From assembly GCA_016285615.1 (NCBI GenBank), contig JAEERB010000006.1, positions 1-40,251 on the forward strand: 40,251 nucleotides of DNA. Reading direction: 5' to 3'. The DNA is from Bacteroidales bacterium (lineage in GTDB: Bacteria > Bacteroidota > Bacteroidia > Bacteroidales > WCHB1-69). Made by a program: the position numbers and the translations under genes. Below are positions 2,635-29,959 of this stretch, piece by piece (within the stretch, counting starts at the first letter, position 1; the number at the start of each line of letters is the position of its first letter). The notes under the pieces are model-generated. The model was not told the DNA's origin. It made no database searches and saw only the letters and a program-made list of their open reading frames with translations.

Positions 2635-2655
2635 TTACAATGCATTCTTCGGTCA

Positions 2656-2691: not shown

Positions 2692-2697
2692 CGGAAG

Positions 2698-2772: not shown

Positions 2773-2789
2773 TCTCAATTTTACGGCTG

Positions 2790-2819
2790 CAAAAATAATA
2801 AAAAATCCGACATGACAAA
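2790..2819 (-). promoter_or_regulatory. Bacteroidota-type promoter for tRNA-Glu
   Basis: On the minus strand a TTTG (forward 2816-2819) is followed after 18 nt by TATTTTTG (2790-2797), matching the -33/-7 consensus. The box lies 17 nt upstream of the tRNA 5' end. Confidence 0.75.
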
Positions 2820-2837
2820 TAGTTTGTCCCAAATTTT

Positions 2838-3527
2838 TTATTCCTTGGCCTGCCGGTCTGGTTCAAACCTGAATCCCAGGCGTTTACCAGTCTTAATGGT
2901 CATTACTTGATCCTCAATTTGCATCATATCGTTGACCGTCAACTCCTTCACTTGCGTGTATTCTGGAACCAAAAGGTCGAAATTGATGGTATATTGGATT
3001 GCCGAGTAAAGGATTTCTTTCACCGATTCTTTCGTCAACTCGTTGGTACTAAAGTTATTCAACACCTGTGAAAGTTCTCTTTTGCCATCTATATAATAAT
3101 GTAAATCCTTGTTAATCAAGATTCTACCTATTAAATAGCCGATGTCGTTTACGCGGGTGTACTTGAAAGAGTCGGCTAAGAAGTTGAAAATCATAATCAT
3201 ACCGCAATACGAGCGTTCCTTATCTTCTTTGATATAGGAAGTACGCATCACTTCGTGGTCGCGTGAAAACTCAAATATATTGGTGTGCATCAGAAAGATA
3301 AGCACGTCACCAGCAAACTTCAGCTGGAACTCATACTGGCTTTTCTGAGTGAAATGCACATTGATCTTCTCGTGAGTCTCGCCATATTTCTCGTTAAACT
3401 CTTCCTCGAACTCCTTGGCAGCTTCCTTAAACATCTGCATCGTGTCTAAGGTGGTGTGGAAAATCTGCTGCTTCAACTCACCCTTCGAGATTAACAATTT
3501 TGATAAATCATCAAGATGTGTTTCCAT
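2838..3527 (-). CDS. Conserved hypothetical protein, cytoplasmic
   Basis: No family is recognised with confidence. The 229-aa product is rich in charged residues, has no signal peptide or membrane segment, and contains a helical N-terminal stretch (residues 1-60, KEAAKEFEEEFNEKYGE) that could form a coiled coil. The rest is mixed alpha/beta, with aromatic segments such as YCGMIMIFNFLADSFKYTRVND. The frame stays open upstream to a TTG at 3548, but that lies inside the promoter box, so the ATG (METHLDDLSK) is taken as the start. It is a single-gene unit between two tRNA genes. Confidence 0.75.
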   Translation of the reverse strand: METHLDDLSKLLISKGELKQQIFHTTLDTMQMFKEAAKEFEEEFNEKYGETHEKINVHFTQKSQYEFQLKFAGDVLIFLMHTNIFEFSRDHEVMRTSYIKEDKERSYCGMIMIFNFLADSFKYTRVNDIGYLIGRILINKDLHYYIDGKRELSQVLNNFSTNELTKESVKEILYSAIQYTINFDLLVPEYTQVKELTVNDMMQIEDQVMTIKTGKRLGFRFEPDRQAKE

Positions 3528-3545
3528 GTCGTTAATTTTGAACTG

Positions 3546-3553
3546 CAAATATA
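3546..3553 (-). promoter_or_regulatory. Promoter -7 box for the 2838-3527 gene
   Basis: TATATTTG on the minus strand lies 18 nt upstream of the chosen ATG and overlaps the alternative TTG start, which it argues against. Confidence 0.6.
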
Positions 3554-3625
3554 CACGAAATTATTCAAATAGATGAGACTTGTTAAAAAGGGGAATTTTA
3601 TGGTGGAAAATGCGCCGCAATTTCG

Positions 3626-3633
3626 TATTTTTG
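3626..3633 (+). promoter_or_regulatory. Promoter -7 box for tRNA-Arg
   Basis: TATTTTTG followed by C, 15 nt upstream of the tRNA 5' end. No good TTG is seen at -33. Confidence 0.6.
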
Positions 3634-3648
3634 CCTTTCAAAATTTTG

Positions 3649-3720
3649 GGCCTTGTAGTTCAATGGATAGAACGAAAGTTTCCTAAACTTTAAATTTGGG
3701 TTCGATTCCCAGCGAGGCTA
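3649..3720 (+). tRNA. tRNA-Arg (anticodon CCT)
   Basis: The 72-nt cloverleaf has acceptor GGCCTTG / CGAGGCT (G-U first pair and T-G sixth pair), D stem GTTC/GAAC, anticodon stem AAAGT/ACTTT with loop TTCCTAA giving anticodon CCT (reads AGG), and T stem TTGGG/CCCAG. The discriminator is A. A strong terminator follows, so it is transcribed alone. Confidence 0.94.
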
Positions 3721-3752
3721 CTAACCATTTAAAAATCAGCATGGTTTTTCAA

Positions 3753-3782
3753 AACAGGCTTTTTTAGCCTGTTTTTTGTTTT
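3753..3782 (+). terminator. Intrinsic terminator after tRNA-Arg
   Basis: ACAGGCT, a five-T loop and AGCCTGT form a 7-bp stem followed by T6-G-T. The next base pairs are A/T, which would allow weaker termination from the opposite side as well (mnmG transcripts arrive from there). Confidence 0.85.
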
Positions 3783-3860
3783 TTAAATCTTGCGTCTTGA
3801 AAAATTTTTTTTGATGTCTTATTTTTGATTTCAATATTTAAACAACTGTTACTCAGTTAT

Positions 3861-5735
3861 TTATACCGATTGTCGCAAATAAATCATCAGTGCAGCGATG
3901 TCGGAAGGACTCACGCCACTAATTCGGGAAGCTTGTCCGAGGTTGGCCGGCTTCACCCGTGTCAATTTTTCACGTGCCTCCATCGAGAGTGACACCAAAG
4001 AGTAATAATCGATTTGAGGGGGCAGTTTGATGTTCTCCAAGTTGACCATGCGGTGTGCTTGTTCTTCCTCTTTTTTGATATAGCTGGCATACTTAAGTGC
4101 AATCTCACTAATCTCCAACTCTTCATCGGTAGCCGATACCTCGCTTAGAAATTGCTGTAGGGCGGGGGAGGATTGTATCAATTGCTGAAGGTTGACTTGC
4201 GGGCGAAGGAGCAGCGTTTCATACTTAACAGGTTGTGAAAGTTGCGGTGTATCCAGCTCTGTCAGCAACGGATTCACTTCGGCAGGAACGGCATTATGTG
4301 TTCGGATAAAGTCCATAATGACAGCACGCTGCGAATATTTCTTATCCAGCGTACGCATTTGCTCGTCGGCCACCAATCCCAACTGATGTCCTAATGGTGA
4401 AAGTCGCTCATCGGCATTATCCTGGCGTAACAAAATTCTATACTCGGCGCGTGATGTGAACATTCGATAGGGATCCTCGACGCCTTTGGTTACCAAATCA
4501 TCAATAAGTACGCCAATATAAGCCTGCGAGCGGGTCAAGATGAACGGCTCTTCGTTATGCAAAGAACGGTGAGCGTTGATAGCTGCCATCAAACCTTGGC
4601 AAGCGGCCTCTTCGTAACCTGTTGTTCCATTAACCTGACCAGCCAAATAGAGGTTGGGAATCACTTTCGATTCGAGAGTAAAATGTAACTGTGTAGGATC
4701 GAAAAAGTCGTACTCAATGGCATAACCTGGGCGCAAAACCACCGCTTTTTCCAAGCCGGGAATATGGTGCAATGCCTCAATTTGAACATCCTCTGGCAAA
4801 GATGATGAAAAGCCGTTAAGGTAGCATTCGTACGTATTTCTGCCTTCTGGTTCCAAAAACAACTGGTGCCTGTCGCGCTCGGAAAAACGCTCAATTTTAT
4901 CCTCTATAGAGGGGCAATAGCGCGGCCCAACTCCCTTAATTCGACCCTGAAACATAGGCGAATCGCCGAAGCCTGTGCGCAATATTTCGTGCACCACTGT
5001 ATTGGTATAGGTTATCCAGCAACTGCGTTGATCTCGCAGAGGCGGGGTGGGGGTAAACGAAAAACAGCCAGGCTGATCATCGCCTTTTTGTTCTTCCATC
5101 TTTGAAAAATCCACCGAGCGACCATCTATGCGCACCGGCGTTCCAGTTTTCAATTTGCGCACTGTGATGCCAGCCTCTTTCAATTTATCCGACAAATTCA
5201 ACGACGAGGCTTCGCCCATGCGGCCACCCGAAAAATTCAATTTGCCTATATGGATTCTGCCGTTTAAAAAGGTGCCGTTGGTCAAAATTATCTTGGAGGC
5301 TCTGACGGTCAATCCTTGCAAGGTAACCACACCCACAGCCGCACCGTTCTCCATCACAATGTCGGTTACGGTATCCTGGCGAAGATGCAAATTGGGCTGG
5401 TTTTCGAGTACGGAGCGCCAAAAAAGCGAGAACTGCATCTTGTCGCACTGTGCCCTCGGACTCCACATGGCGGGACCCTTGGAACGATTCAACATACGGA
5501 ACTGTATCATCGTATGGTCGGTAACAACGCCCGACATGCCACCCAGAGCATCAATCTCTCGCACAATCTGCCCTTTGGCGATACCACCCATGGCAGGGTT
5601 GCACGACATCTGTGCCACCAGAGAAAGGTTCATGGAGATGAGCAGTGTTTTGGAGCCCATTTTGGCTGCCGCCACCGCTGCCTCACAACCCGCATGTCCT
5701 GCGCCAACTACCACTATGTCATACGATAATTCCAT
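3861..5735 (-). CDS. mnmG: MnmG (GidA), tRNA uridine-5-carboxymethylaminomethyl synthase subunit
   Basis: The 624-aa product is full length. It opens with the FAD-binding Rossmann motif [13 protein letters not shown] (residues 9-21), followed by [12 protein letters not shown], the conserved CPSIEDKI (near 270) and the [10 protein letters not shown] segment (near 380). A C-terminal helical MnmE-binding domain ends with [15 protein letters not shown]. With MnmE and GTP it modifies U34 of tRNAs that read two-codon boxes, using FAD and methylenetetrahydrofolate. It probably shares a transcript with ybeY, 62 bases upstream; the spacer contains a perfect 18-bp palindrome. In many bacteria mnmG lies near the chromosome origin, which makes the palindrome more interesting. 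Confidence 0.97.
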
Positions 5736-5758
5736 ATATCAACCTCTAAAAACTTCAG

Positions 5759-5776
5759 ATATTCCACGTGGAATAT
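5759..5776. promoter_or_regulatory. Perfect palindrome resembling a parS site
   Basis: ATATTCCACGTGGAATAT is an 18-bp perfect palindrome in the ybeY-mnmG spacer. Its 12-bp core TTCCACGTGGAA matches the core of ParB binding sites known in pseudomonads, a close variant of the general TTTCACGTGAAA core. A one-mismatch copy (TTCCACGTAGAA) occurs at 10240-10251. Whether ParB binds here is inference; a transcriptional regulator is another possibility. Confidence 0.45.
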
Positions 5777-5797
5777 ATAAGCTAATTATCAATAAAT

Positions 5798-6235
5798 CTA
5801 TTTTTTACAATTATCAACTGCCATTTTTTCGTACAATTCAATAGCCCATTTTTCCTGTTTCCTCATCTCTTCGGCTTCCGCTTTTTTCTTATCTTTATAG
5901 CCACATAAATGCAAAATGCCGTGCGCCATCACGCGGACCAACTCCTCTTGGAAAGTGACCGAATATTGCTGCGCATTTTCGCGGACCCGTTCCACGCTGA
6001 TGAAAATATCGCCGTTCAAAACATCCCCTTCGCAATAGTCAAACGTGATAATGTCGGTATAGGTGTCGTGTTGCAAATATTGCTGGTTGATCTCCAACAA
6101 GTACGCATCATCACAAAAAATATAGTTCACATCGCCTATTTTTTTGTTTTTGGATTGAACCATCTTGCCTATCCAAAGTCTATATAGTGTACGCTTGACA
6201 AAACGAAATTGATATTGGAAATTGAAAGTAATCAT
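5798..6235 (-). CDS. ybeY: YbeY, endoribonuclease in rRNA maturation
   Basis: The 145-aa protein carries the UPF0054 metal-binding signature as HGILHLCGYKDK (near residues 104-115). The first two His ligands are present; the third His of the usual HGxxHxxGYDH is replaced by the KDK variant that I recall from Bacteroidota YbeY. YbeY takes part in 16S rRNA 3'-end processing and ribosome quality control in the cytoplasm. The open frame extends 18 codons upstream, but a TATTTTTG promoter box lies in that extension, so MITFNFQYQF is preferred. It is probably the first gene of a ybeY-mnmG operon. Confidence 0.93.
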   Translation of the reverse strand: MITFNFQYQFRFVKRTLYRLWIGKMVQSKNKKIGDVNYIFCDDAYLLEINQQYLQHDTYTDIITFDYCEGDVLNGDIFISVERVRENAQQYSVTFQEELVRVMAHGILHLCGYKDKKKAEAEEMRKQEKWAIELYEKMAVDNCKK

Positions 6236-6258
6236 AACGACAGTCTCAAAACGAACGA

Positions 6259-6266
6259 CAAAAATA
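6259..6266 (-). promoter_or_regulatory. Promoter -7 box for ybeY
   Basis: TATTTTTG on the minus strand, 23 nt upstream of the chosen start codon. Confidence 0.6.
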
Positions 6267-6313
6267 CAAAAATTAGCATGACAAATCATTCAAAATAGAT
6301 AATCATCAAAACC

Positions 6314-6345
6314 TTGCGCTTTAAAACGGATTTTTATTATTTTTG
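6314..6345 (+). promoter_or_regulatory. Promoter for the thioredoxin/DUF6029/Omp28 operon
   Basis: TTG at 6314-6316 and TATTTTTG at 6338-6345, 21 nt apart, with the box 22 nt upstream of the first start codon. Confidence 0.6.
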
Positions 6346-6367
6346 CGAACAAATAAAAACAAACATC

Positions 6368-6886
6368 ATGAAAAAATTAGCTCTCTTCATCCTCCTGATT
6401 TCTTGCACGCTTCTTTCTTTCGGTCAAGAAGAAACCAAAGAGAAGAAATTGGCCACCATTCCTTCAGTGGATATCAAAGCTTTGGACGGACAATCCTTCA
6501 ACACCATCAATATCGACAACGACGGCAAGCCCATCATCATCAGCTTGTGGGCTACCTGGTGCAAACCCTGTATCGCCGAATTGTTGGCCATTGCCGACGT
6601 GTACGACGAGTGGGTGGAAGAGACCGGCGTAAAACTCTATGCCATCTCGATTGACGACGTGAAGACCGCCGCTCGCGTTGAGCCTTTCGTCAATGGAAAG
6701 AACTGGGAATACGAAGTTCTGTTGGATATCAACTCCGACTTCAAGCGCGCCATGAACGTAGTGGACGTGCCCTTCCTCTGCATCCTGAACGGCAACAGAG
6801 AGATTGTTTGGAAACACACCTCCTACGCCCCCGGTTCAGAAGAGGAAGTTTATGAAATTGTAAAAGGATTAGTGAATCAAAAATAA
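6368..6886 (+). CDS. TlpA-like periplasmic thioredoxin
   Basis: The 172-aa product starts with a Sec signal peptide (MKKLALFILLISCTLLSFGQ) and continues as a thioredoxin fold with the active site WATWCKPC (Cys pair near residues 64-67) and the cis-proline segment VVDVPFLCIL. TlpA/ResA-type proteins reduce disulfides in the periplasm. The predicted frame begins 18 codons earlier but would span the promoter, so the ATG before the signal peptide is chosen. It is the first gene of an operon; the DUF6029 barrel gene follows after 6 bases. A lipobox-like LISC lies unusually early in the signal and is probably not used. The substrate is unknown, but the downstream Omp28-like protein also carries a CxxC site. 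Confidence 0.85.
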   Translation: MKKLALFILLISCTLLSFGQEETKEKKLATIPSVDIKALDGQSFNTINIDNDGKPIIISLWATWCKPCIAELLAIADVYDEWVEETGVKLYAISIDDVKTAARVEPFVNGKNWEYEVLLDINSDFKRAMNVVDVPFLCILNGNREIVWKHTSYAPGSEEEVYEIVKGLVNQK

Positions 6887-6892
6887 ACCTGA

Positions 6893-8581
6893 ATGATGAG
6901 ATTTTTATTCCGTTCGCTTAAAACATTCGTCTTTATTCTTGCTTTCATCAGCTTCTCATCTCCGCTCAAGGCCCAAATCCCCGTAGGGAAAGGAACCATC
7001 AGCGGAGATTTTATGCTGAATGGCATGTTCTATATCCCCGACTCACTGATCGGGGCCGACAAGGTGGACTCAAAAGTGAGAGCCAACTCGTACATGTACC
7101 TTCAATATACCAATGGTGGTTTCACGGCCGGCATGAGGTACGAGTTTTACCTTTACCCGCTGATCGACTTTGAAGATATAGGCTATAAAGGCCATGGCAT
7201 CACCCACTATTTTGCCGACTATAAAAACGACTTTATCCAGGTGACTGCCGGTACTTTCTATGAACAATTCGGCTCCGGACTGACCTTGAGAACCTACGAA
7301 GACAAGTATCTCGGCATCGACAACAGCATCTTGGGCGCCCGCGTGAAAGTGACCCCCTACAAAGGTATCACCCTGAAAGGCGTGTGGGGCATCCAACGCA
7401 AGAATTTCGATTTCGAATATCTGAAACGTAAAGACCATGTGCGCGGCATTGACGGCGAAATATCTCTGACAGAGTTAATTCCGCAGATGTCGGAAAAAGG
7501 CTTCAGTACCTCTTTGGGTGCCAGCTTCGTGAGCAAATATGAGAAAGACGAGGACCCCACCTTCATCCTGCCACAGAACGTGGCCACCTGGGGTGCACGA
7601 CTCAATTTCGGATGGAAGGGACTGCGTTTTGAAGGCGAATATGCCCGCAAAATAAACGACCCCAACGCCACCAACGAGTATATCTACAAGCCTGGCGACG
7701 CTCTATTTGCATCGCTCACCTATTCGATGAAAGGCTTCGGCATTTCCACCTCCTTCATCCGCGCCGACAATATGGACTTCCGCTCGCAGAGAGGAACACC
7801 AGCCAACCTGGCATTACTCAATATCAACTATATACCGGCCATCAACCGACAGTACTCCTACCAGTTGATTAGCAACTATAGCTATGCCAGTCAGCCCAAC
7901 GGCCAAGTGGGAGCCCAGTGCCAGATCAACTATCAGATACCCAAAAAGACCAAGATTGGCGGCAAGTATGGCACCGACATCACCCTGAACTACGCCCGCT
8001 ACCATACCATCGACAAAACCATGCTGCCCATCGACTCTATCACAGGCTCGCAAAGCGGCACCGACGGCTACACCTCCAACTTCTTTAAGTGGGGTAAAGA
8101 GTTGCTGTATCAGGATTTAGGTGTGGAAATAAGTCGAAAGTTTGACAAGCGCTGGAAATTGATTGTGGCTTATAACTGGCTGATTTACAATATGGAAGTA
8201 TTGCAAGGACATGGCGGCATGTTCCACGGTCACAATGTGGCTGTCGACCTCACCTGCAAGATCAACAGCAAGCACGCGCTGCGACTCGAAGCACAGCACC
8301 TCTACTCGAAAGACGATCTTGGCAGCTGGGTTTATGCCATGCTCGAATACTCCATCAATCCGCACTGGTTCATCTCCATTGGCGACCAATGGAACTACGG
8401 CAATGCTGACAAATCGCGCCGTATTCATTACTACAATATTTCCGCTGCTTTTGCGATTAAAACTACAAGAATCGCGTTGTCGTACGGAAAAACCCGTGAA
8501 GGCATCCTCTGTGTGGGCGGCGTTTGCCGTACCGTGCCCGCCTCTTACGGTTTAGGCCTTTCGGTTACCACATCGTTCTAA
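6893..8581 (+). CDS. DUF6029-type outer-membrane barrel protein
   Basis: The 562-aa protein has a Sec signal peptide cleaved near PLKAQ (residues 25-28). A long alternating pattern of beta strands rich in Tyr, Gly and aromatic belts follows (FTAGMRYEFYLYPL, FYEQFGSGLTLRTYEDK), and the chain ends on a terminal Phe (SVTTSF), as expected for an outer-membrane barrel. The combination matches a family I recognise as DUF6029, common in Bacteroidota and of unknown function. It sits between a periplasmic thioredoxin and an Omp28 lipoprotein with 6- and 34-base spacers, implying one transcript and a shared envelope role. Two late cysteines (CVGGVC) could be a thioredoxin substrate. Confidence 0.8.
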   Translation: MMRFLFRSLKTFVFILAFISFSSPLKAQIPVGKGTISGDFMLNGMFYIPDSLIGADKVDSKVRANSYMYLQYTNGGFTAGMRYEFYLYPLIDFEDIGYKGHGITHYFADYKNDFIQVTAGTFYEQFGSGLTLRTYEDKYLGIDNSILGARVKVTPYKGITLKGVWGIQRKNFDFEYLKRKDHVRGIDGEISLTELIPQMSEKGFSTSLGASFVSKYEKDEDPTFILPQNVATWGARLNFGWKGLRFEGEYARKINDPNATNEYIYKPGDALFASLTYSMKGFGISTSFIRADNMDFRSQRGTPANLALLNINYIPAINRQYSYQLISNYSYASQPNGQVGAQCQINYQIPKKTKIGGKYGTDITLNYARYHTIDKTMLPIDSITGSQSGTDGYTSNFFKWGKELLYQDLGVEISRKFDKRWKLIVAYNWLIYNMEVLQGHGGMFHGHNVAVDLTCKINSKHALRLEAQHLYSKDDLGSWVYAMLEYSINPHWFISIGDQWNYGNADKSRRIHYYNISAAFAIKTTRIALSYGKTREGILCVGGVCRTVPASYGLGLSVTTSF

Positions 8582-22041: not shown

Positions 22042-22077
22042 AAAGCGAGACATCTAACAAGGTGGCTCGCTTTTTTT
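22042..22077 (+). terminator. Intrinsic terminator after tRNA-Lys
   Basis: AAAGCGAG (22042-22049) pairs with CTCGCTTT (22066-22073), and the T-run continues to 22077. Confidence 0.75.
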
Positions 22078-22087
22078 ACCGAGCGAG

Positions 22088-22256
22088 GCACACCTAACGG
22101 CGTGCCAAATACCGAGCGAAGCAGGCCTATGGGCCTGCTTTTTTTGCATGCAGATGGTTGAGGTATCTTATGCGCTTGGTTGCAGGCCTATGGGTCTGCA
22201 AAGCTTGGTAGAAACGGAACGATGTTGAAAAAATCCCCGCACGCCGTTAGGTGTGC
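22088..22256. repeat. REP/MITE-like palindromic element, copy 1
   Basis: The 169-bp element is bounded by an 18-bp perfect inverted repeat (GCACACCTAACGGCGTGC and its complement). Inside lie two further palindromes, GCAGGCCTATGGGCCTGC (22121-22138) and GCAGGCCTATGGGTCTGC (22182-22199). A conserved tag CCGAGCGA precedes the left palindromes and a related inverse form follows the right ones, as in paired, inverted REP sequences (REPINs). A longer homologous copy follows the transposase gene at 28058-28305, in the same orientation. The element has no coding capacity and probably relies on that transposase. Confidence 0.8.
22121..22145 (+). terminator. REP palindrome with T-run, acts as terminator
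   Basis: The GCAGGCC...GGCCTGC stem is followed by seven T, so this REP unit should also stop rightward transcripts. Confidence 0.55.
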
Positions 22257-22305
22257 GACGGAAAAAAGAAAAGCAAATAAATTTTTTAATTAGAGAATAT
22301 ACATA

Positions 22306-23136
22306 TTAAATAGCAGGCTGAATATGCTTAACAATGCGTACGCTAACCTCATATAAGAGATAAAGAGGAATGGTTACGAGAATGAGAGTCATTAGGTCAG
22401 GAGGGGTAATAATCGCAGCTGTTAGCATAATAATTATAAAGGCATGTTTGCGATATGTGTTGAGCACTTCATAACGAACTACTCCCATTTTGCCTAAAAC
22501 AAAAGCCACGACAGGTAGTTGGAATACCACTCCCATAACGAGAGTGAGTGAAACAAAGGTTCTAACATAGGAATCAAGGGTAATGTTACTTACCACTTGT
22601 GTTGAAACGCTGTATGTGCCTAAAAAACGGAACGAAATAGGAAAAAGAACAAAATAACTCATCAATACTCCAATGATGAATAATAGGTAAATAATCAAAG
22701 CCACTTGTACCGAATGTTTTCGTTCATTCTTATAAAGTGCAGGAGAAATAAAGTGAAACAACTCAAATAGAATATACGGAGATGCCCCTAATAAACCCAA
22801 ATAACAAGCCGTTGTAATATGTTTCATAAATTGACTTGACAAATCCGTGGCAATCATATTCACATGAAATTCCTGGAAATGGAAAGGAACGCCCATAAAT
22901 TGGATGATTTTCTCAATCCAACGATAGGTGCAGAAATCCCATTGACTTGGAGCAAGCAGTATTTGCCATGTAAAATCTTTGAAACAAAAAACCATCACGG
23001 CAAACACCCCTGTAATTGCAAAAATGCGAAAAAGCATTTGACGAAAAGCCTCGAGGTGACCACCGAAAGTTAACCGATTCGAGTCGGAATTATTGTTCAG
23101 ATTTGTTGTCTTCTCTGGGTTCGATTTCCGAGTCAT
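22306..23136 (-). CDS. tatC: TatC, twin-arginine translocase receptor subunit
   Basis: The 276-aa protein has the N-terminal cytoplasmic GGHLEAFRQMLFRIF (equivalent of the usual HLxELRxRL signal-binding helix) and six predicted membrane helices with the SPALYKNERKHSVQVALIIYLLFIIGVLMSYFVLFP region typical of TatC. TatC recognises twin-arginine signal peptides on folded proteins. Its start overlaps the end of tatA by 47 bases, so the two are translationally linked. It is the last gene of the CXXX-peptide cassette, whose two precursors carry Tat signals; that linkage is the main reason to assign it to this pathway. Confidence 0.93.
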   Translation of the reverse strand: MTRKSNPEKTTNLNNNSDSNRLTFGGHLEAFRQMLFRIFAITGVFAVMVFCFKDFTWQILLAPSQWDFCTYRWIEKIIQFMGVPFHFQEFHVNMIATDLSSQFMKHITTACYLGLLGASPYILFELFHFISPALYKNERKHSVQVALIIYLLFIIGVLMSYFVLFPISFRFLGTYSVSTQVVSNITLDSYVRTFVSLTLVMGVVFQLPVVAFVLGKMGVVRYEVLNTYRKHAFIIIMLTAAIITPPDLMTLILVTIPLYLLYEVSVRIVKHIQPAI

Positions 23137-23317
23137 TAATCACTTCTTCCTTTTTTTCTTCTTCCACGGGTTCTTTCATCCCTTGTTTGAAACTTTGTAC
23201 ACCTTTTCCCAAGCCTTTCATTAGTTCAGGAACCTTTTTACCACCGAAGATAAGTAAGGCAACTCCTGCGATGAGTAACAATTCAGTAGTGCCAATAAAT
23301 AACAAAGGTATAGTCAT
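23090..23317 (-). CDS. tatA: TatA, Tat pore-forming subunit
   Basis: The 75-aa protein has one N-terminal membrane helix (TELLLIAGVALLIFG, about residues 10-24), the FGGKKVPELMKGLGKGVQSFKQGMKE hinge and amphipathic helix that define TatA, and an acidic tail. No separate tatB is seen, which fits minimal TatAC systems. It starts 2 bases after the stop of the small modification protein, so the peptide-maturation and export genes are on one transcript. Confidence 0.93.
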   Translation of the reverse strand: MTIPLLFIGTTELLLIAGVALLIFGGKKVPELMKGLGKGVQSFKQGMKEPVEEEKKEEVINDSEIEPREDNKSEQ

Positions 23318-23319
23318 AA

Positions 23320-23592
23320 TTATGCAGTTACTAAAAAGATTTCACAATTATCGAAATTAATTTCCCAATGCCCATTAGGATCGCTGATCCATTGGTATTT
23401 ATTTGCCATTGAGTCCCACCAATTTTGGAATTTAGTGTTCGTCTCGCCCATATCTTTTACTAATTTTTCGTATAATTCGTTATTGTCTGAAGATAGAACT
23501 TTAGCAAGTTCCATCAGTCCGTTTTTACGCTCAAAAAGCGTTTGTATCTCATTTTTTTCTTCAATGGTTACTTTTCCTACTTTTTTTTTCAT
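23320..23592 (-). CDS. Small CXXX-peptide modification-system protein
   Basis: The 90-aa acidic, soluble protein (MKKKVGKVTIEEKNEIQ... LVKDMGETNTKFQNWWDSMANKYQW) resembles a family annotated in Bacteroides as CXXX repeat peptide modification system protein, which occurs only beside CXXX maturases. Its biochemical role is unknown; it could be a substrate-binding or carrier partner. The frame stays open to an ATG at 23643 that would overlap the maturase gene; the ATG at 23592 gives the usual short N-terminus. The conserved core is the aromatic WWDSM...YQWI segment. Confidence 0.7.
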   Translation of the reverse strand: MKKKVGKVTIEEKNEIQTLFERKNGLMELAKVLSSDNNELYEKLVKDMGETNTKFQNWWDSMANKYQWISDPNGHWEINFDNCEIFLVTA

Positions 23593-23617
23593 CATCAAAA
23601 ATATTTTAGTAAATAAT

Positions 23618-24562
23618 TTATTTCCAGGCGGTTGCTTTTTCAAAGGGATCTAAATAATCCAATTCAGTTATTGATTTGTCTTCAAAAATACCAAGCTTTT
23701 GAAGTTTTCTAAGCAAATCTTGACTTACACTTCGTTCAATATGGGCTGTAACACATTGTTCGTGAGATGGAGTATTGACCTCCAGTGTCATTTTACGGTT
23801 CAACCAAATACAGCGTTTACATTGATAGGCGTCACAAATTCGGCAAATAGGCGCATATGCAATTTTGTACAATTGAGGGTTAAGAATAACCAATCCCTTC
23901 TTTAAATTGCCGACGGAATCATCGGGATTTTCGTAATAAAAGGCAGGACAAACATAGAATTTTCCGTTGGGAGCTAATGTAATCGTTTCGTTTCCTGCTT
24001 CACAGTTGTTCATTTTATCCAACAAAATTCTATCGCTTAATAAATTGATTTGAAATGTATTGTTAGTCAATAGTTGTTCTTTGTACCAATCAGCCAGTTT
24101 TTGGAGGAATTCTTTATATTGGATAAAATCGGTTTCTGAATATTTGTCAACATCTTTTAGTACAATATTTAAACGTTGATAGATTGCTTTTTTTGAAGCA
24201 ATAATTTCAGCAACTTGACTAAAATCAGATTTTGTAATTTGCAAAGTATAAATTTTGTCCGTGTGGAGGTCTGTTTTTGAAAAATCATTCAAAGAACGAC
24301 AGACAATCACATCAGCATCCGAAGTATTATCATTTTTTGACGACATAATCTTACTGTGATCAATACTTTCAATAGTGTCAATATAATCTTTTGAGAGAGG
24401 ATAATCAGGGAAAACAAACTGAATCATCAGATTCTCCTTCATTCCCCAAATGATACCTTCTTTTAAATTTTCTATCGAAATCAGATTGCGTTCATTTTTA
24501 TTGTCATAATGACAAAATGAGGCAGATGAATCATCTAAAAGAATTACCAAATATTGTAACAT
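23618..24562 (-). CDS. CXXX-repeat peptide maturase, SPASM-like, no radical SAM cysteines
   Basis: The 314-aa protein begins MLQYLVILLDDSSASFCHY, the typical opening of proteins annotated as CXXX repeat peptide maturase. It lacks an N-terminal CxxxCxxC, but its C-terminal part has a SPASM-like auxiliary iron-sulfur pattern: NCEAGNETITLAPNGKFYVCPAF (near 202-224), then CRICDAYQCKRCIWL (near 256-270) and SHEQC. It may therefore bind one or two auxiliary clusters but not the SAM-cleaving one, acting as partner of the radical SAM protein just upstream. The ATG chosen leaves a 13-base spacer; the longer open frame overlaps the previous gene. Confidence 0.8.
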   Translation of the reverse strand: MLQYLVILLDDSSASFCHYDNKNERNLISIENLKEGIIWGMKENLMIQFVFPDYPLSKDYIDTIESIDHSKIMSSKNDNTSDADVIVCRSLNDFSKTDLHTDKIYTLQITKSDFSQVAEIIASKKAIYQRLNIVLKDVDKYSETDFIQYKEFLQKLADWYKEQLLTNNTFQINLLSDRILLDKMNNCEAGNETITLAPNGKFYVCPAFYYENPDDSVGNLKKGLVILNPQLYKIAYAPICRICDAYQCKRCIWLNRKMTLEVNTPSHEQCVTAHIERSVSQDLLRKLQKLGIFEDKSITELDYLDPFEKATAWK

Positions 24563-24575
24563 AACGCTTCTGTAT

Positions 24576-25787
24576 TTAACAAATAGATTCAGTGTCTTGT
24601 CGTTTATTTTTTTCAAATTCGTCGCGTAAACCGTCTTTTTCTAACTTGCGATAGAGTTTATTCCAATAGTAATTGTTAGCGCGAACTCTTGCTTTGTGCA
24701 TCTTACAAATGGCTGTGGCCCGTTGATAAATAGTGTTGGTTTGTGCAGCATCATAGTTTTCGCCTTGACACCAAGCACATCCACTTGCAACTTCACATTC
24801 TATACACATTTGTGGACTTTGTGTGCAACGGTCTAATGTTAAAAAAGGGCGTAGTAAATTATTATTGATACCCGTATCAACATGACCAATAATAAGAGCT
24901 TTTTTTTCACGTAAAGAGTATTGAGCAAACCTTGTGCAAGGATAAAAATTGCCAGCAGCATCTACAGAAAGCATTTTGCCCGCGCCGCACCAGTTGTTGT
25001 TGTCCCGCTCACTATCCATTGGTTTGCCAATATTTTCAGAAAAGAAAGAGCAGGCGTAGTCTTTATAATAATCTTGGTCAATAATAATATCAGCCAGTTT
25101 AATGAGTTGTTCTTCAAAAATGCTATCGTCACCATCATTCCACACATCTTCAAATACCACATTGATATTTACTTCGTGAATGCCTAAAGAGTAAAGATGT
25201 AATACACTTTCAACAATATATGGCAAATCAGGACTGCTTACAGTGACTTTTGTTGCGGCATTTGGAAATTGCTTTAACCAAAGAGGAATGTTTTTCACGA
25301 CATCTTTATATGACCCTCTTTCAGTTAGTTTATAAACACGATTCATGTCATGTTTTTTCTCTGTTCCATCAATAGTAATACCAATGCTGATGTGCGAGAC
25401 ATTTTTTTTGATGAAATCTTGCACTTTTTTCTCGTGGTAATTAATACCATTGGTGGAAAAACTAAAACGGTAGGAGTTAAACCAATGATGGTTCAAACGA
25501 AACATTTCCGTTTTTAGATAGTCGCAAATCTTATCTATAAGGTCAATCTCTAAAAAAGGTTCCCCTCCTATAAAATCATAAATAACAGATTCTTCTCGAA
25601 ACTCGTTTTCATGTCCTAGAATATAGTCTATCGCTTTCTTTGCAGTTTTAAAACTCATCCTTTCGGAGATGTTTTTTCCTACGAGATAACAGTATTTGCA
25701 AGCCAACTGACAATCTTTAGTAACAATGAATGTAATATGTTTGGCAATCCCTTCTTGCCATGAGTGAGAAGGTTGAAAAAATTCCAT
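24576..25787 (-). CDS. Radical SAM peptide maturase, CXXX-repeat target family
   Basis: The 403-aa enzyme carries C26-x3-C30-x2-C33 (KDCQLACKYCYL) and the SAM-binding GGEP at residues 74-77. A SPASM-type cysteine cluster lies at the C-terminus (WCGAGKMLSVDAAGNFYPC, then CTQSPQMCIECEVASGCAWCQG, and a late CKMH). This architecture is that of RiPP maturases that form thioether or other carbon-centred bonds. Its place next to two Cys-rich CXXX precursors identifies the likely substrates. The exact chemistry (for example Cys thioether crosslinks or epimerisation) cannot be read from sequence. It follows precursor B after 28 bases. Confidence 0.9.
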   Translation of the reverse strand: MEFFQPSHSWQEGIAKHITFIVTKDCQLACKYCYLVGKNISERMSFKTAKKAIDYILGHENEFREESVIYDFIGGEPFLEIDLIDKICDYLKTEMFRLNHHWFNSYRFSFSTNGINYHEKKVQDFIKKNVSHISIGITIDGTEKKHDMNRVYKLTERGSYKDVVKNIPLWLKQFPNAATKVTVSSPDLPYIVESVLHLYSLGIHEVNINVVFEDVWNDGDDSIFEEQLIKLADIIIDQDYYKDYACSFFSENIGKPMDSERDNNNWCGAGKMLSVDAAGNFYPCTRFAQYSLREKKALIIGHVDTGINNNLLRPFLTLDRCTQSPQMCIECEVASGCAWCQGENYDAAQTNTIYQRATAICKMHKARVRANNYYWNKLYRKLEKDGLRDEFEKNKRQDTESIC

Positions 25788-25815
25788 AAAAACAGATTAT
25801 CGTAATTGTAAGTAA

Positions 25816-26187
25816 TTAATGTTGTGATGCACTCTTACAAGATCCGGCACATCCTGATCCACAGCCATAACAGCCGCCGTCGCAACCACCATAACATCCT
25901 TTACATTGTCCCTGACAACTTGAACCTCCACAATTCCAAAGGCAACTATCTTTACATGTATTGTTGCAATTTGTACTGCAAGTACAAGAGGACGTTGTAG
26001 AACCGCCGCTACATGTATCAGAACATGTTCCAAAACAAGAATTCTTACATCCAGATATTTCTTCTTTTGTGCAACCACTCAAAGTTTGACCCAAAACAAC
26101 AGCGCCTAAAATAGGTAATATTGCGTACAGGCTTTTTTTAAAAAAAGACCTACGAGAGATAATATCTTTTGTTTTATCCTCTCCCAT
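25816..26187 (-). CDS. CXXX-repeat precursor peptide B, Tat signal with lipobox
   Basis: The 123-aa peptide has a twin-arginine motif S11-R-R-S-F-F-K17, a hydrophobic stretch, and a lipobox LSGC with Cys39. Nineteen cysteines in total follow a mostly four-residue rhythm from residue 47 to 117 (CKNSCFGTCSDTCSGG..., CYGGCDGGCYGCGSGC), with Gly, Ser and Thr between them. This is the hallmark of CXXX-repeat RiPP precursors. The lipobox suggests a Tat-exported, lipid-anchored product. A metallothionein-like metal binder is an alternative, but the adjacent radical SAM maturase favours modification. It starts 2 bases after the 80-aa gene. Confidence 0.88.
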   Translation of the reverse strand: MGEDKTKDIISRRSFFKKSLYAILPILGAVVLGQTLSGCTKEEISGCKNSCFGTCSDTCSGGSTTSSCTCSTNCNNTCKDSCLWNCGGSSCQGQCKGCYGGCDGGCYGCGSGCAGSCKSASQH

Positions 26188-26189
26188 AA

Positions 26190-26432
26190 TTATTTAATTT
26201 TCTTCTTAAAATATTCTTCACCTTTTTCATTTAAAACAATAGTAACACTATCCCCTTCATATATTTTTATATCACTAAAAAAATCAAAGAAGTGTAGATC
26301 CATTTCCTTCATCAAGATTATTAGGTCTTTTTTTAAGATCAATCCTTGTGAAGCACCGCCTTCCAGATATTTTTTATTGGAATAGTTAATCTCAAACGTT
26401 TTGTTTAAAATCGTTTTTGCCTTATCGGTCAT
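26190..26432 (-). CDS. Unrecognised 80-aa protein between the two precursors
   Basis: No family is recognised. The product (MTDKAKTILNKTFEINYSNKKYLEGGASQGLILKKD...) is lysine-rich and alpha/beta, with no signal peptide, cysteine or membrane helix. It ends EKGEEYFKKKIK. Its start is 43 bases after precursor A and its stop 2 bases before precursor B, so it is translated with them. It might be a leader-binding partner or chaperone for the peptides, but this is inference from position only. Confidence 0.65.
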   Translation of the reverse strand: MTDKAKTILNKTFEINYSNKKYLEGGASQGLILKKDLIILMKEMDLHFFDFFSDIKIYEGDSVTIVLNEKGEEYFKKKIK

Positions 26433-26475
26433 AATGTTACGAAAAATAAAGAAGAAATACAGAAACTGTCAAGGT

Positions 26476-26793
26476 TTAATAATTCCAACCACTACATCCC
26501 ACAGAACATGAACCTGAACAGCCGGTACAACTACCGGTACAGCGACCATAACAATCGTTGCCACAACCATACTGACAACCACCAGTGCAAGAACCAGAGC
26601 AACCCATACAACCTCCGCTGCATGAACTTGAACAATCTCCTGTGCAACCATAATAGCAGCCTGTGCTTTTATGCGTAGCATTACCAATAAATGGCATAGA
26701 TGTTAATGCAATCGCTCCGATAACTGGTAATACTTTTTTTGCGGCATTCTTGAAAAACTCGCGTCTTGATTGGATTTCATTGTTTTCTTTCAT
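26476..26793 (-). CDS. CXXX-repeat precursor peptide A, Tat signal
   Basis: The 105-aa peptide has the twin-arginine motif S9-R-R-E-F-F-K15, a hydrophobic region, and a signal peptidase I-like site (GNA, residues 37-39). From Cys46 it has 15 cysteines in CXXX spacing (CYYGCTGDCSSSC..., with two CXX steps) and ends SGWNY. Gly, Ser and Thr fill the spacers. Precursor B has a lipobox; A does not, so A may be released. It is the first structural gene after the cassette promoter. Confidence 0.9.
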   Translation of the reverse strand: MKENNEIQSRREFFKNAAKKVLPVIGAIALTSMPFIGNATHKSTGCYYGCTGDCSSSCSGGCMGCSGSCTGGCQYGCGNDCYGRCTGSCTGCSGSCSVGCSGWNY

Positions 26794-26834
26794 AACAAAA
26801 TAAAGTTCAAATTATTTTATTTAAAAATAGCACG

Positions 26835-26863
26835 CAAAAATATTATAATTCACAATGTTACAA
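26835..26863 (-). promoter_or_regulatory. Promoter for the CXXX/Tat operon
   Basis: On the minus strand TTG (26861-26863) and TATTTTTG (26835-26842) are 18 nt apart, an excellent consensus match, placed about 40 nt before the precursor A start. No terminator is seen between genes down to tatC. Confidence 0.75.
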
Positions 26864-26908
26864 TAGTTTACGGTGGAACAAAATCGTTTCATTTATGCAA
26901 CAAAAAAG

Positions 26909-27148
26909 TTACACTTGATGATTAGAAAATAAAGATTTGGAATATATGGAGAAAAAATCTTTGTTCAAAAGAGAAGATATGCGGAAAAGAGTTTGTGTGT
27001 CAATGCTGTAATTGTGAAATATACGATAACAGGCCATACGACTTGTGCCTAATTGCCGAGCGAACCATGCCACACTTCGTCCTTGGGAGCGCAACTCCTT
27101 TTGAATAATGAGTCCAATATGAATCGGTTCAGCCATAATGATTTCCAT
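26909..27148 (-). CDS. Small helix-turn-helix protein
   Basis: The 79-aa product has a five-helix XRE/Cro-like DNA-binding fold: HIGLIIQKELRSQGRSVAWFARQLGTSRMACYRIFHNYSIDTQTLFRISSLL, with the helix-turn-helix at about residues 26-46. There is no extra sensor domain. Its stop is 115 bases upstream of precursor A and the cassette has its own promoter between, so it could regulate that promoter. An alternative start is Met5 (27136). No strong promoter box lies directly upstream; the best candidate is at 27432. Confidence 0.75.
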   Translation of the reverse strand: MEIIMAEPIHIGLIIQKELRSQGRSVAWFARQLGTSRMACYRIFHNYSIDTQTLFRISSLLNKDFFSIYSKSLFSNHQV

Positions 27149-27205
27149 TTCTCTTATAGCGGCGGTTGCTTACAGGCATACGTATTCTTCATAGACATAA
27201 AAAAG

Positions 27206-27248
27206 AACGTGGACAAACCTTATCCACGTTTCTGAGGTCCTGAGAAAC
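27206..27248 (-). promoter_or_regulatory. Two overlapping, mutually exclusive hairpins
   Basis: AACGTGGA (27206-27213) pairs with TCCACGTT (27223-27230), loop 9 nt. GTTTC (27228-27232) pairs with GAAAC (27244-27248) through an imperfect 21-nt palindrome. They share 27228-27230, so both cannot form. Either a regulatory leader for the HTH gene or a transposon end is possible. Confidence 0.4.
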
Positions 27249-27431
27249 CCCGCAATTACAGACAAGTCTGTCCACGATTTACGCAGACATTTACGACTTA
27301 TTCGAGCAATTGCTTTATTTGAAAATTCTCAGGTTTCAGAAACGTTACCGAATAAATAGCAAACGCTATGGTTAATATGTTAGTTTAATGTGTTATTTTA
27401 CATGTTTTGGTTGTTTTTGAATTCTTAACCG

Positions 27432-27439
27432 CAAAGATA
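27432..27439 (-). promoter_or_regulatory. Candidate -7 box for the HTH gene
   Basis: TATCTTTG on the minus strand, 283 nt upstream of the HTH start; if used, it would give a long structured leader. Confidence 0.35.
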
Positions 27440-27552
27440 TTTAAAAAATCGATATAACGTGCATTTAAACCGTAATAAGAATCAAGAATCCCTCAATAAA
27501 TGTGTTATGTCATTTTGTTATTTAAAAGTTAAAATTTCATAATATGATTATG

Positions 27553-27560
27553 TATATTTG
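27553..27560 (+). promoter_or_regulatory. Promoter -7 box for the transposase
   Basis: TATATTTG followed by C, 29 nt before the transposase ATG. Confidence 0.5.
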
Positions 27561-27589
27561 CCTCATTAAAAACATTTTAAATCCCTATT

Positions 27590-28048
27590 ATGAACAACAC
27601 CTATTCACAGATTCACATTCATGTAGTATTTGCAGTAAGACGTCGGGAGGCTTTGATAGAGCCAATATGGCGCGAGAGATTGTATCAATATATAGCGGCT
27701 ATGATAAACAATAAAGGACATAAAACATTAGCCATTGGCGGAACAAAGAATCATATTCATATTTTGTTGGGCCTTCGGCCTCATCAATCCATATCATCTT
27801 TGATGTTAATGGTTAAGCGGGATTCATCCGTATGGATTAATAATGAACACCTTACGCCAAAGGTTTTCCAATGGCAGTCAGGATTTGGAGCGTTTACATA
27901 TTCCAAGAGCCAGTTGCCCCAAGTTATCCGATACATTGTAAGTCAGGAGAAACATCATGAAAAACAGACATTTAGAGATGAATACATTGATATTTTGAAA
28001 AAAAACGAGGTGGAATTTGATGAACGTTATATTTTCAAAGATGTGTAG
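27590..28048 (+). CDS. IS200-like / REP-associated Y1 transposase
   Basis: The 152-aa protein is a HUH single-strand transposase of the Y1 type: the HUH metal site is H55-I-H57 (TKNHIHILLG) and the catalytic tyrosine is probably Tyr115 in IRYIVSQ, with the conserved Gln119. A FQWQSGFGAFTYSKS segment and the QEKHH stretch match the stand-alone branch often found next to REP sequences. All key residues are intact. No TnpB partner is present. A REP-type element begins 10 bases after its stop codon, as in RAYT/REP pairs. It lies beyond the HTH gene at the right edge of the cassette. Confidence 0.88.
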   Translation: MNNTYSQIHIHVVFAVRRREALIEPIWRERLYQYIAAMINNKGHKTLAIGGTKNHIHILLGLRPHQSISSLMLMVKRDSSVWINNEHLTPKVFQWQSGFGAFTYSKSQLPQVIRYIVSQEKHHEKQTFRDEYIDILKKNEVEFDERYIFKDV

Positions 28049-28057
28049 CAGATGGCC

Positions 28058-28305
28058 GCACACCTATGGCGTGCGAAATACCGAGCGAAGCAGGCCTATG
28101 GGCCTGCTTTTTTTGCATGCAGATGGTTGAAGTATTTTATGCGATTGGTTACAGGCCCATAGGTCTGCAACGCTTGGCGTCATGAAAATACATATTTCTA
28201 AAATGATGCACTATATGAGGATTGGGTTGCAGGCCTATGGGTCTGCAACGCTTGGTAGAAACGGAATAATGTTGATAAAATCCCCCCGCACGCCGTTAGG
28301 TGTGC
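28058..28305. repeat. REP/MITE-like palindromic element, copy 2
   Basis: The 248-bp copy has the same right terminal repeat (GCACGCCGTTAGGTGTGC, 28288-28305) and a variant left one (GCACACCTATGGCGTGC, 28058-28074). It contains three internal palindromes (28090-28107, 28151-28168, 28229-28246) because of an internal insertion of about 75 bp with an extra REP unit. Orientation matches copy 1, so the two are direct repeats bracketing the CXXX/Tat cassette. Its end lies 10 bases from the sialidase stop codon. Confidence 0.8.
28090..28114 (+). terminator. REP palindrome with T-run after the transposase
   Basis: A GCAGGCC/GGCCTGC stem followed by T7, a likely terminator for transposase transcripts. 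Confidence 0.55.
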
Positions 28306-28315
28306 GACGACGAAA

Positions 28316-29959
28316 TCACCGACGAATATTGATAATTTCGTCCATCGACAGTTGCATATATTGCAAATCGGCTTGGCTGCCTTCGAAAAGGATGCCGATG
28401 GTGTGGTCGTCTACGGTGGTGATGCAGGAGTAGCCGTTGCCAATCCATTCGTCGAGGTTCTTCCAAAAGATTGAGGGCCAGGTCTCTCCGTCGTCAAAGC
28501 TGACTTTTAGTGTGTGGTTGTGGCGGTAGAGGGTGGAGTTGGGGTTGAAAAATAGCAATATCGGCTTTGTATTGTTTTGTTTTTCAGGCTTATAGAGACT
28601 TGCCATGCAGGTAGGTTCGATGAGGGCGCTAAAAGAGGTTGGGTGGGAAGTCCAAGTCTGGCCCAGGTCGTTGCTGACGGCCACCACACGACCATTGTGG
28701 CAGTCGGCATGGCGGCCACGGTTGCCTTTTTCTCTCATGTTCAGCATAAGAGAGCCGTTGGAAAGTTGCACCACCGAACATTCAATGGTGTTGTGGAAGG
28801 CGGGATTGGCGGTGTGCCAGCTCTGCCCGTGGTCCTTGCTCCAGGTGATGGTGGAGAAGGAGGTGCCGTCGTTTTCACGGCCTTGGGTGGGGAAAACCAG
28901 TGTGCCGTCGTTCAGGGTGATGCCGCTGCCAGGGCAAGGCGAGAAGAGGCACCACTCTTCCTTCTTTAACTGTCGTGTCAAATTCTGCGGCTCGCTCCAT
29001 GTGGCGCCGTCGTCGTTGCTCTTGACCATCAACACTTGTGAAGATTGGTTCAGCCCGTAGCCTGGCTTGGAGCCGTTGGGATTCCACTGGTGGTTCCACA
29101 CTTCCGACGCTTCGGTGAGGCCTTCCACCCACTTTCCACTTTCGGGGTCGATGACGCCGTGCATCCAGAGACCCATGACGAATATCTCGCCCGTCTGGCG
29201 GTCCACGAGAATCGAGGGATCATCCACACCGTTGAATTTTTCGGGCAGGCCACCGTAGGTGCCCATGTCGATGATTTTCTGCACGGGCTGCCAGGTTTTG
29301 CCTTTGTCGAAACTGCGTGTAATGCCGATGTCAATATCGTTGGCCAGGTCGATGTAACTGTGGTTGCGCATGGCGAAAACAGCAATCAGCGTGCCGTTGT
29401 TAGTGGTGACAAGTCCCGGAATGCGTGAGCCGCAAACGCCATCTTGTCCGTGTTGGCGCACAGCAACGCCAATACGATGGGTATTAAGAGAAGATAAAGA
29501 GAGGCAAGTTGGTTTCACAGCTCTTTTTTGTGTGGAGAATGTAGCGCTGATGAGGTTGGCTGTAATGCGGTGTGAAAGGTCTGTTTGGTCGCTTAATTTA
29601 ATTGAAATCCAGCCGATTACAGTATCTTTATCAAGAGTTAGGTTGGTTGGAAGAGAGGTTTCGGGGCGCACTTTCGAGGTTTCGGCCCATTTCTGTTCGG
29701 GGTCTAATTCATGTTCATTTTTCTCAGCATAAAAAGCTACCAATTCAATCTCATTTATATTAGAAGTGCCTTTGAATGAGATGTTTAAGCTTTTTAAAAT
29801 AGAGGGGTTGTCATCAGGTTTAATAATGCGCACCCGTATCAAGTGATTGGTTGCCTTATGAGTTAGAATAGGAATATTATATTGCTCTGTTTCAACTTTT
29901 TGAGCAAAAACAGCGGTCGTGCAAAAGAAAAACAGGCAAAGCAAAAAGGTATGTTTCAT
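28316..29959 (-). CDS. nanH: Secreted exo-alpha-sialidase
   Basis: The 547-aa protein has a signal peptide (MKHTFLLCLFFFCTTAVFAQ), an N-terminal beta-sandwich domain (residues about 25-155) typical of Bacteroides sialidases, and a six-bladed propeller. Visible are the arginine motif CGSRIPGLV (near 183), and five Asp-boxes: SFDKGKTW, SNDDGATW, SKDHGQSW, SNDLGQTW and SFDDGETW. The second arginine is in LNMREKGNRG and the nucleophile Tyr/Glu pair is probably in GYSCITT and HNTIECSVVQL. It would release sialic acid from host or dietary glycans in the periplasm or outside. Adjacent to lnt with 12 bases between; no Nan catabolic genes are in view. Confidence 0.92.
   Translation of the reverse strand: MKHTFLLCLFFFCTTAVFAQKVETEQYNIPILTHKATNHLIRVRIIKPDDNPSILKSLNISFKGTSNINEIELVAFYAEKNEHELDPEQKWAETSKVRPETSLPTNLTLDKDTVIGWISIKLSDQTDLSHRITANLISATFSTQKRAVKPTCLSLSSLNTHRIGVAVRQHGQDGVCGSRIPGLVTTNNGTLIAVFAMRNHSYIDLANDIDIGITRSFDKGKTWQPVQKIIDMGTYGGLPEKFNGVDDPSILVDRQTGEIFVMGLWMHGVIDPESGKWVEGLTEASEVWNHQWNPNGSKPGYGLNQSSQVLMVKSNDDGATWSEPQNLTRQLKKEEWCLFSPCPGSGITLNDGTLVFPTQGRENDGTSFSTITWSKDHGQSWHTANPAFHNTIECSVVQLSNGSLMLNMREKGNRGRHADCHNGRVVAVSNDLGQTWTSHPTSFSALIEPTCMASLYKPEKQNNTKPILLFFNPNSTLYRHNHTLKVSFDDGETWPSIFWKNLDEWIGNGYSCITTVDDHTIGILFEGSQADLQYMQLSMDEIINIRR

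Follow-up and report, generated by a model that had tools for sequence, protein, structure and literature searches.

A CXXX-repeat peptide cassette joined to tatA and tatC in Bacteroidales: a probable link between radical SAM peptide modification and Tat export

The window analysed here is the whole 40,251-nucleotide stretch of DNA from a Bacteroidales bacterium (GenBank assembly GCA_016285615.1, contig JAEERB010000006.1, positions 1 to 40,251, forward strand). It carries on its minus strand, from 26793 to 22306, an operon in which two Cys-rich precursors of the CXXX-repeat type, with an 80-amino-acid (aa) open reading frame (ORF) between them, are followed by three genes for peptide maturation and by tatA and tatC, the genes of a twin-arginine translocation (Tat) system. 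The members of the operon, in order of transcription, are:

26476..26793, minus strand: precursor 1, 105 aa; TIGR04117 52.4 bits (cut-off 50)
26190..26432, minus strand: 80-aa ORF with no assigned family, between the two precursors
25816..26187, minus strand: precursor 2, 123 aa; TIGR04117 42.4 bits (below the cut-off of 50), TIGR04114 21.5 bits (cut-off 20)
24576..25787, minus strand: radical SAM/SPASM maturase, CXXX-repeat target family; TIGR04115 623.6 bits (cut-off 350)
23618..24562, minus strand: CXXX repeat peptide maturase, the partner; TIGR04119 243.5 bits (cut-off 150)
23320..23595, minus strand: CXXX repeat peptide modification system protein; TIGR04116 97.9 bits (cut-off 50)
23090..23317, minus strand: TatA; TIGR01411 60.0 bits (cut-off 53.9), PF02416
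22306..23136, minus strand: TatC, of a cassette-associated clade; PF00902 188.6 bits (cut-off 25.1), TIGR00945 154.6 bits (cut-off 132.7)

An initial annotation had named these genes, apart from the 80-aa ORF, and had described them as closely spaced or overlapping. The named genes are present at the coordinates and on the strand claimed, with their families over the NCBIfam or Pfam cut-offs (precursor 2 being below that of TIGR04117), and the two twin-arginine signals it reported, SRREFFK and SRRSFFK, were both recovered in the precursors. The spacing stood only in part: the partner maturase and the modification protein probably start at ATG codons (24562 and 23595) within longer TTG ORFs, and if these are used, two of the overlaps disappear and the genes begin 13 and 22 bases after the preceding stop. 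When the maturases were searched against radical SAM and CXXX family models, as the same annotation had suggested, TIGR04115, TIGR04119 and TIGR04116 all scored over cut-off; with one target model over cut-off for each precursor, the operon has the composition of a CXXX-repeat system. Likewise, TatA and TatC families over cut-off together make up a minimal TatAC system, and TatC has the PALYxNE[RK] loop, presumably the signal-binding loop; judged by their profiles, the two are typical of their families. For the 80-aa ORF, no family over cut-off was found in profile searches and no protein-database homologue except itself among three candidates scored; its only phmmer match was in L001/L016, the nearest relative.

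Both window precursors have a twin-arginine motif followed by a hydrophobic stretch, as expected of Tat substrates. Precursor 1 reads SRREFFK...LPVIG and then CXXX repeats, by eye without a lipobox, and is probably cut by signal peptidase I. Precursor 2 reads SRRSFFK...LPILG, then the lipobox LSGC, then T-K-E-E and the CXXX repeats. The window thus has one precursor of each sort. The stretch LSGC-T-K-E-E matches the lipoprotein export signal of Bacteroidetes surface lipoproteins, K-(D/E)2, as given in PMC5080379. Under a rule set by us, a lipobox is present in 34 of 140 precursors from the 80 loci described below, 9 of which have exactly C-x-K-[DE][DE]. The repeats are very regular: the gap between cysteines is exactly three residues in 2424 of 2733 cases (143 precursors), the first X being mostly Ser, Lys or Thr, the second Gly in 37% and the third Ser, Gly or Thr in 70%, with Pro nearly absent. 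The number of Cys per precursor ranges from 7 to 74 with a median of 16. The largest precursor is found at L040 (8938-9978; 340 aa, 74 Cys).

The twin-arginine signal is itself strongly conserved. Near a radical SAM gene, 150 distinct ORFs have five or more CxxxC, and 146 of them carry the RR motif, at least two of the 146 being spurious (two spurious ORFs of L028 were excluded from the repeat and signal-alignment sets); RR-x-F occurs in 131 of 135 related precursors matched by motif search. When 144 ORFs were aligned on the arginines, 130 followed the majority signal E-L-Q-S-R-R-E-F-F-K-x-A-A-K-x-x-L-P-[IV]-[LI]-G, and after RR the conservation was 99% (F), 97% (F), 92% (K) and 99% (P). A Pro at position +13 was observed in 138 of 145 precursors of a wider set, including all 11 from loci that have no tat gene, and in none of 18 control Tat signals from carrier genomes. 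The controls were drawn from 20 Tat-like places in eight carrier genomes, 19 with RR in frame, one of which (L233) was spurious. By these alignments the precursor signal is of a special type, marked by Pro at +13. Since the motif is kept in precursors that depend on a housekeeping Tat system, it is more likely to be read by the maturases than by a special TatC, and we put at even odds the possibility that this signal doubles as a maturation leader.

Conservation of the operon was surveyed at other loci. A scan with one genome per species gave 330 relatives of the radical SAM protein, and the best 80 were used; with four short pieces they made a set of 84 loci for phmmer searches with the window proteins. 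Among these, 82 matched the partner, 80 the modification protein, 65 TatA and 61 TatC. The usual order puts the precursor(s) first, then radical SAM, partner and modification protein, with tatA and tatC last. Five of the 80 loci stop short of the expected place of tat (L035, L078, L080, L083, L094) and were left out; in the remaining 75 informative loci, tat genes follow the TIGR04116 gene in 63 (61 have tatC, and two have tatA where the contig ends). A second sample, an even draw across the order (393 Bacteroidales genomes), gave TIGR04116 in 13, over cut-off in 12. One of the 12, G762, was left out because it carries TIGR04116 by itself, and tatA-tatC adjoins 8 of the 11 complete cassettes that remain. 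The two sets overlap in at least three of these 11, as L174, L176 and L179 share an identical radical SAM protein with L046, L050 and L038. The initial annotation had allowed that the linkage might be chance if CXXX loci elsewhere had neither Tat signals nor tat neighbours; both features are common there, as the counts above show. Most of the closest loci repeat this gene order, and on this comparative evidence the linkage of tat and CXXX is not chance; a chance linkage was ruled out by the recurring order together with the even draw.

Several records touch on the distribution of the family. In G762, a lone TIGR04116 gene (L178, 7856-8470) lies behind an apparent decayed Cys-rich precursor, and a second lone copy is L184. 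Among 395 genomes of the phylum, TIGR04116 was found in only two, of one genus, with no adjacent tat. In the phylum of G103, one of 299 genomes was over cut-off, namely the centre itself, and its contig is probably misbinned. L019 and L077 are contigs labelled Lachnospiraceae and Clostridia with Bacteroidales-like cassettes, and both are probably misbinned; L077 groups with L078. Bacteroides congonensis (L061), a culturable carrier, has the maturases and a precursor but no tat beside them. A phage-collection record, MT837480 (L215, 2779-3945; unverified, from human faeces), holds a radical SAM protein of 74% identity and is likely to be bacterial DNA.

The TatC copies give an independent view of the pairing. 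tatC is present in 329 of the 393 even-draw genomes. At least two tatC matches were counted in 5 of the 12 genomes with TIGR04116 over cut-off and in 17 of the 381 others (Fisher p 2e-4; a hand count in which some matches may be fragments). Among the 61 genomes with a cassette tatC, 49 have a second tatC match and 12 the cassette copy only; L031 (split TatC), L054 and L062 were assigned by hand, and the 12 include L054. Of the 120 TatCs placed in a tree, 55 fall into a single clade (approximate likelihood ratio support, SH-aLRT, 97), consisting of 49 cassette copies and six labelled other. Five of these six lie in cassettes (L187-L191); the sixth, L164, is probably a cassette TatC as well, as it stands at a contig end and the cassette contig of its genome breaks behind tatA. 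Once the eight even-draw cassette TatCs are included, the clade grows to 59 rows (SH-aLRT 98) out of 75 cassette copies, that is, 69 labelled so and six first labelled other; the trees were quick ones, with some long branches. No non-cassette copy is shown within the large clade, and the remaining cassette TatCs group with housekeeping copies.

A single origin of all cassette TatCs in one clade was rejected (approximately unbiased test, p 3.5e-8). It suggests that tat was recruited to cassettes more than once, or exchanged, and either course argues for a function. The initial annotation had counted another tatAC in the rest of the genome against the linkage; a second tatC does exist in most of the genomes with a cassette tatC, but since the cassette TatC usually belongs to a clade of its own, the two seem to be paired specifically and not by accident. 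At window residue 206, which we take to be the position of E170 in E. coli TatC, the large clade has Gln in place of a conserved Glu: Q is found in 52 of 55 members, and E in 48 of 53 others. The PALYxNE[RK] loop is also common in this clade. The window TatC lacks the HLxELR glutamate, which was considered as a special trait and set aside, as many other Bacteroidales TatCs lack it too.

As for the maturation proteins, the best sequence match of the radical SAM protein in PDB was 5wgg (E 2.4e-20), which we take to be CteB, and its second-best NCBIfam model was the PapB ranthipeptide maturase. CX3CX2C and seven SPASM-type cysteines are conserved in its family. Its C-terminal residue (protein 24576-25787) is Cys, likewise in 77 of 82 relatives. 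The TIGR04119 protein shares the 5wgg fold and has seven invariant SPASM-type cysteines, and it has no CX3CX2C; before the SPASM part, C17 is the only invariant Cys in 59 sequences. It is a pseudo-radical-SAM/SPASM partner, with the CteB fold and without the motif of an active enzyme. A much stronger profile match between TIGR04119 and the radical SAM protein (E 2.4e-32) was discarded, as one of the rows was a fusion holding both. For TIGR04116, an AlphaFold2 model of high confidence (pLDDT 94.7) has the arrangement beta-alpha-alpha-beta-beta, and a search for a known fold with this model gave no clear PDB match. The radical SAM protein is fused to TIGR04119 in L180 and Anaerococcus, and TIGR04119 to TIGR04116 in L185 and L186. 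These fusions suggest that the three maturation proteins may form one complex.

Candidate Cys-repeat precursors with no Tat signal were met in two deep relatives, L180 and plasmid pAPRE01 of Anaerococcus prevotii; the latter was the one true member from a plasmid collection (51% identity), among the best 10 of 61 matched records. Like the window, both have a radical SAM protein and partner, here fused, over both cut-offs, a small Cys-repeat ORF and an adjoining TIGR04116, at 89.3 bits in L180 and as a short piece of 32.9 bits, under cut-off, in Anaerococcus. The L180 precursor reached 33.4 bits with TIGR04118, just under the cut-off of 35, and the Anaerococcus ORF matched no CXXX model. Unlike the window, their candidate precursors have no twin-arginine signal, and their neighbours are ABC exporters, with a subtilase as well in L180, where the non-Tat precursor, exporter, subtilase and fused radical SAM/partner occupy 2561-8085. 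The Anaerococcus exporter could instead be part of a lanthipeptide cluster that comes next. Relatives of either exporter or of the L180 subtilase were found near the radical SAM gene in none of the 80 loci (phmmer, E 1e-5; a span of 4 kb ahead of the start of the radical SAM gene and 5.5 kb behind it). In other deep members, L181, L182, L185 and L186, the precursors carry Tat signals and no tat gene is adjacent. In this small sample of two, the export route seems to change with the signal.

In the window, the whole cassette lies within an island. Its features, together with a gene upstream of the operon, are:

22077..28333, no strand: island with the whole cassette, about 6.26 kb; 43 bp instead in the nearest genome compared, G001
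22099..22260, no strand: direct repeat, left copy, just within the island edge; copies 91-93% identical (D1, D2, D4)
28068..28309, no strand: direct repeat, right copy, with extra internal bases
27590..28048, plus strand: IS200-like (insertion sequence) Y1 transposase inside the island; PF01797 83.4 bits
26909..27148, minus strand: small helix-turn-helix protein upstream of the operon, a possible regulator; PF01381 20.3 bits, below the cut-off of 23

Compared with G001 (C86), the flanks of the island show 98.3% and 97.0% identity across about 1.1 kb on either side, and 93 and 97% across about 3.5 kb on either side. The cassette is thus a putative portable block, present or absent as one unit, and gain here and loss in G001 are both possible. 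As G001 has one tatC, the genome of the window may well have a second. A tRNA-Lys is separated from the island by 37 bases, and at the Rfam gathering threshold only four tRNAs were found in the window. The small helix-turn-helix protein has phmmer matches in 26 of the 84 loci. An apparently non-coding segment, 27200-27387, has copies in G108 and G039 (77-83% identity) and by eye a terminator-like hairpin at its end; it matches no Rfam family at the gathering threshold.

CXXX systems have been catalogued in NCBIfam as TIGR04114-TIGR04119, and the maturation genes and precursor 1 of the window pass these curated cut-offs. By name, the models include neither tatA and tatC nor a special Tat signal; as TIGR04117 aligns over the signal region of the precursors, its curators may have noticed the Tat motif. 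To our knowledge these families were named from genome context only and are uncharacterised. The closest characterised relatives are PapB (freyrasin), by profile, and CteB (SCIFF), by the solved structure 5wgg. The window maturase is neither of them, as it scores 195.6 against the cut-off of 340 of NF047865 and 102.8 against that of 425 of TIGR03974; unlike those systems, the window adds a SAM-fold protein without the motif as well as TIGR04116, and the substrate carries a Tat signal. In the maturation of the QHNDH gamma subunit (QhpD/PeaB), a radical SAM enzyme makes thioether cross-links in a Cys-rich periplasmic protein before export, which is by an ABC transporter of its own and not by Tat; the window protein matches the model concerned, TIGR03906, at 99.6 bits, far below the cut-off of 453. 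RiPPs (ribosomally synthesized and post-translationally modified peptides) usually leave the cell by ABC transporters after leader cleavage. The Bacteroidales RiPP clusters in PMC10352776 share the gene order and the radical SAM enzyme, and pseudo-radical-SAM partners occur in 3 of the 9 clusters shown there; they differ in that a C39-peptidase ABC transporter is missing from only two of the nine. In that text, so far as available, the words CXXX, Tat and twin do not occur. As far as the literature was searched, and among the matches listed, no published tie of Tat to CXXX or radical SAM peptides was found.

Taken together, we propose, at a probability of about 0.72, that a portable cassette produces peptides with a Cys every four residues, modifies them and sends them out through its own Tat translocase. 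In this scheme, the maturases would recognise the signal peptide as their leader; cross-links, Cys thioethers being the likeliest kind, would be installed in the cytoplasm by the radical SAM enzyme with the help of its pseudo-SAM partner and TIGR04116; and stapling would make the peptide rigid enough to serve as a Tat substrate. Soluble forms would be freed by signal peptidase. Lipobox forms such as precursor 2 would be lipidated and, where they have K-(D/E)2, shown on the cell surface. That Tat is the export route of the CXXX peptides is quite probable, and that the modification consists of thioethers is slightly better than an even bet. The pairing of radical SAM peptide cassette and Tat system is real and conserved, and it is probably functional. 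A bolder version, which we put forward only tentatively and would not expect to hold in all its parts, is that the cassette contains a RiPP-specialised Tat lineage, that one N-terminal element serves as both leader and twin-arginine signal, that Tat acts as a folding gate passing only stapled peptides, and that the product is a rod of four-residue rings with 7-74 Cys, partly anchored at the surface as lipoprotein.

Some of the results weigh against the proposal. The closest 80 of 330 loci favour similar layouts, and most of them come from metagenome-assembled genomes. In 12 of the 75 informative loci there is no adjacent tat despite room for it, as rechecked with TatA and TatC profiles; tatC lies elsewhere in 10 of these 12 genomes and was not detected in 2. 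Tat adjacency is also missing in 3 of the 11 even-draw cassettes and is therefore not obligatory, and only four of the eight even-draw cassette TatCs fall inside the large clade. Eight of the 18 control signals form four near-identical pairs, all from two Bacteroides genomes, which leaves about 14 independent ones. Other Tat-like signals were found in 4 of 11 genomes whose cassette tatC is the sole tatC detected (the Tat-signal profile TIGR01409 is insensitive, as none of its listed places is a cassette precursor). Profile-profile comparison between TIGR04119 and the radical SAM protein was moderate (E 3e-5, probability 73), and the strong support is structural. Finally, the modification is something that we infer, and Tat signals alone are no proof of export by Tat.

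Other explanations can be set against the same evidence. The product may be a secreted antimicrobial peptide or a signal, its export by Tat a quirk of the lineage and the lipoprotein forms by-products. Ruminococcin C, a related Cys-rich radical SAM product, is reported to be anti-clostridial, and many loci do have several small precursors, with the median Cys count given above; the large precursors, up to 340 aa, and the lipobox forms would, however, better suit a surface structure, and we regard this explanation as doubtful. CXXX peptides may instead be metal or Fe-S proteins, with a Cys ladder loaded in the cytoplasm, the SPASM partner donating clusters and Tat exporting the folded form. Tat classically serves cofactor-loaded proteins, the seven invariant SPASM-type cysteines of TIGR04119 without a SAM-cluster motif fit the handling of clusters, and the strict three-residue gaps and the abundance of Cys would suit a ladder. 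However, the radical SAM enzyme is nearest to PapB by profile and to 5wgg in PDB, both thioether formers, its partner has the same fold, and X residues that are mostly Ser, Gly, Thr and Lys would be unexpected in an Fe-S protein; metal or cluster loading is thus judged unlikely.

The cassette tat genes might also supply a general Tat function, or merely travel along, in which case the peptides could use any Tat system. It would fit that the cassette is an island, that no other tatC was detected in 12 of the 61 genomes with a cassette tatC, and that loci with no tat gene keep the signal while most of their genomes have tatC elsewhere. Against it, the other 49 of the 61 have a tatC match besides that of the cassette, and the large TatC clade, with no non-cassette copy shown, differs at conserved sites such as residue 206. 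We consider such a role quite unlikely. That tatAC stands behind a CXXX locus through chance neighbourhood has nothing in its favour beyond a single window and, already refuted by the conserved gene order, has a negligible probability.

If the proposal is true, a radical SAM peptide cassette tied to its own Tat system would represent an export logic different from that of the usual RiPPs. It would also provide a natural test of how Tat senses folding, since a substrate that no enzyme has stapled may be unfolded, and it would point to a function for a widespread and so far uncharacterised family of gut and rumen Bacteroidales. Many related bacteria show this pairing of cassette and tat, so that the modification of the peptides and their export in folded form appear to go together.

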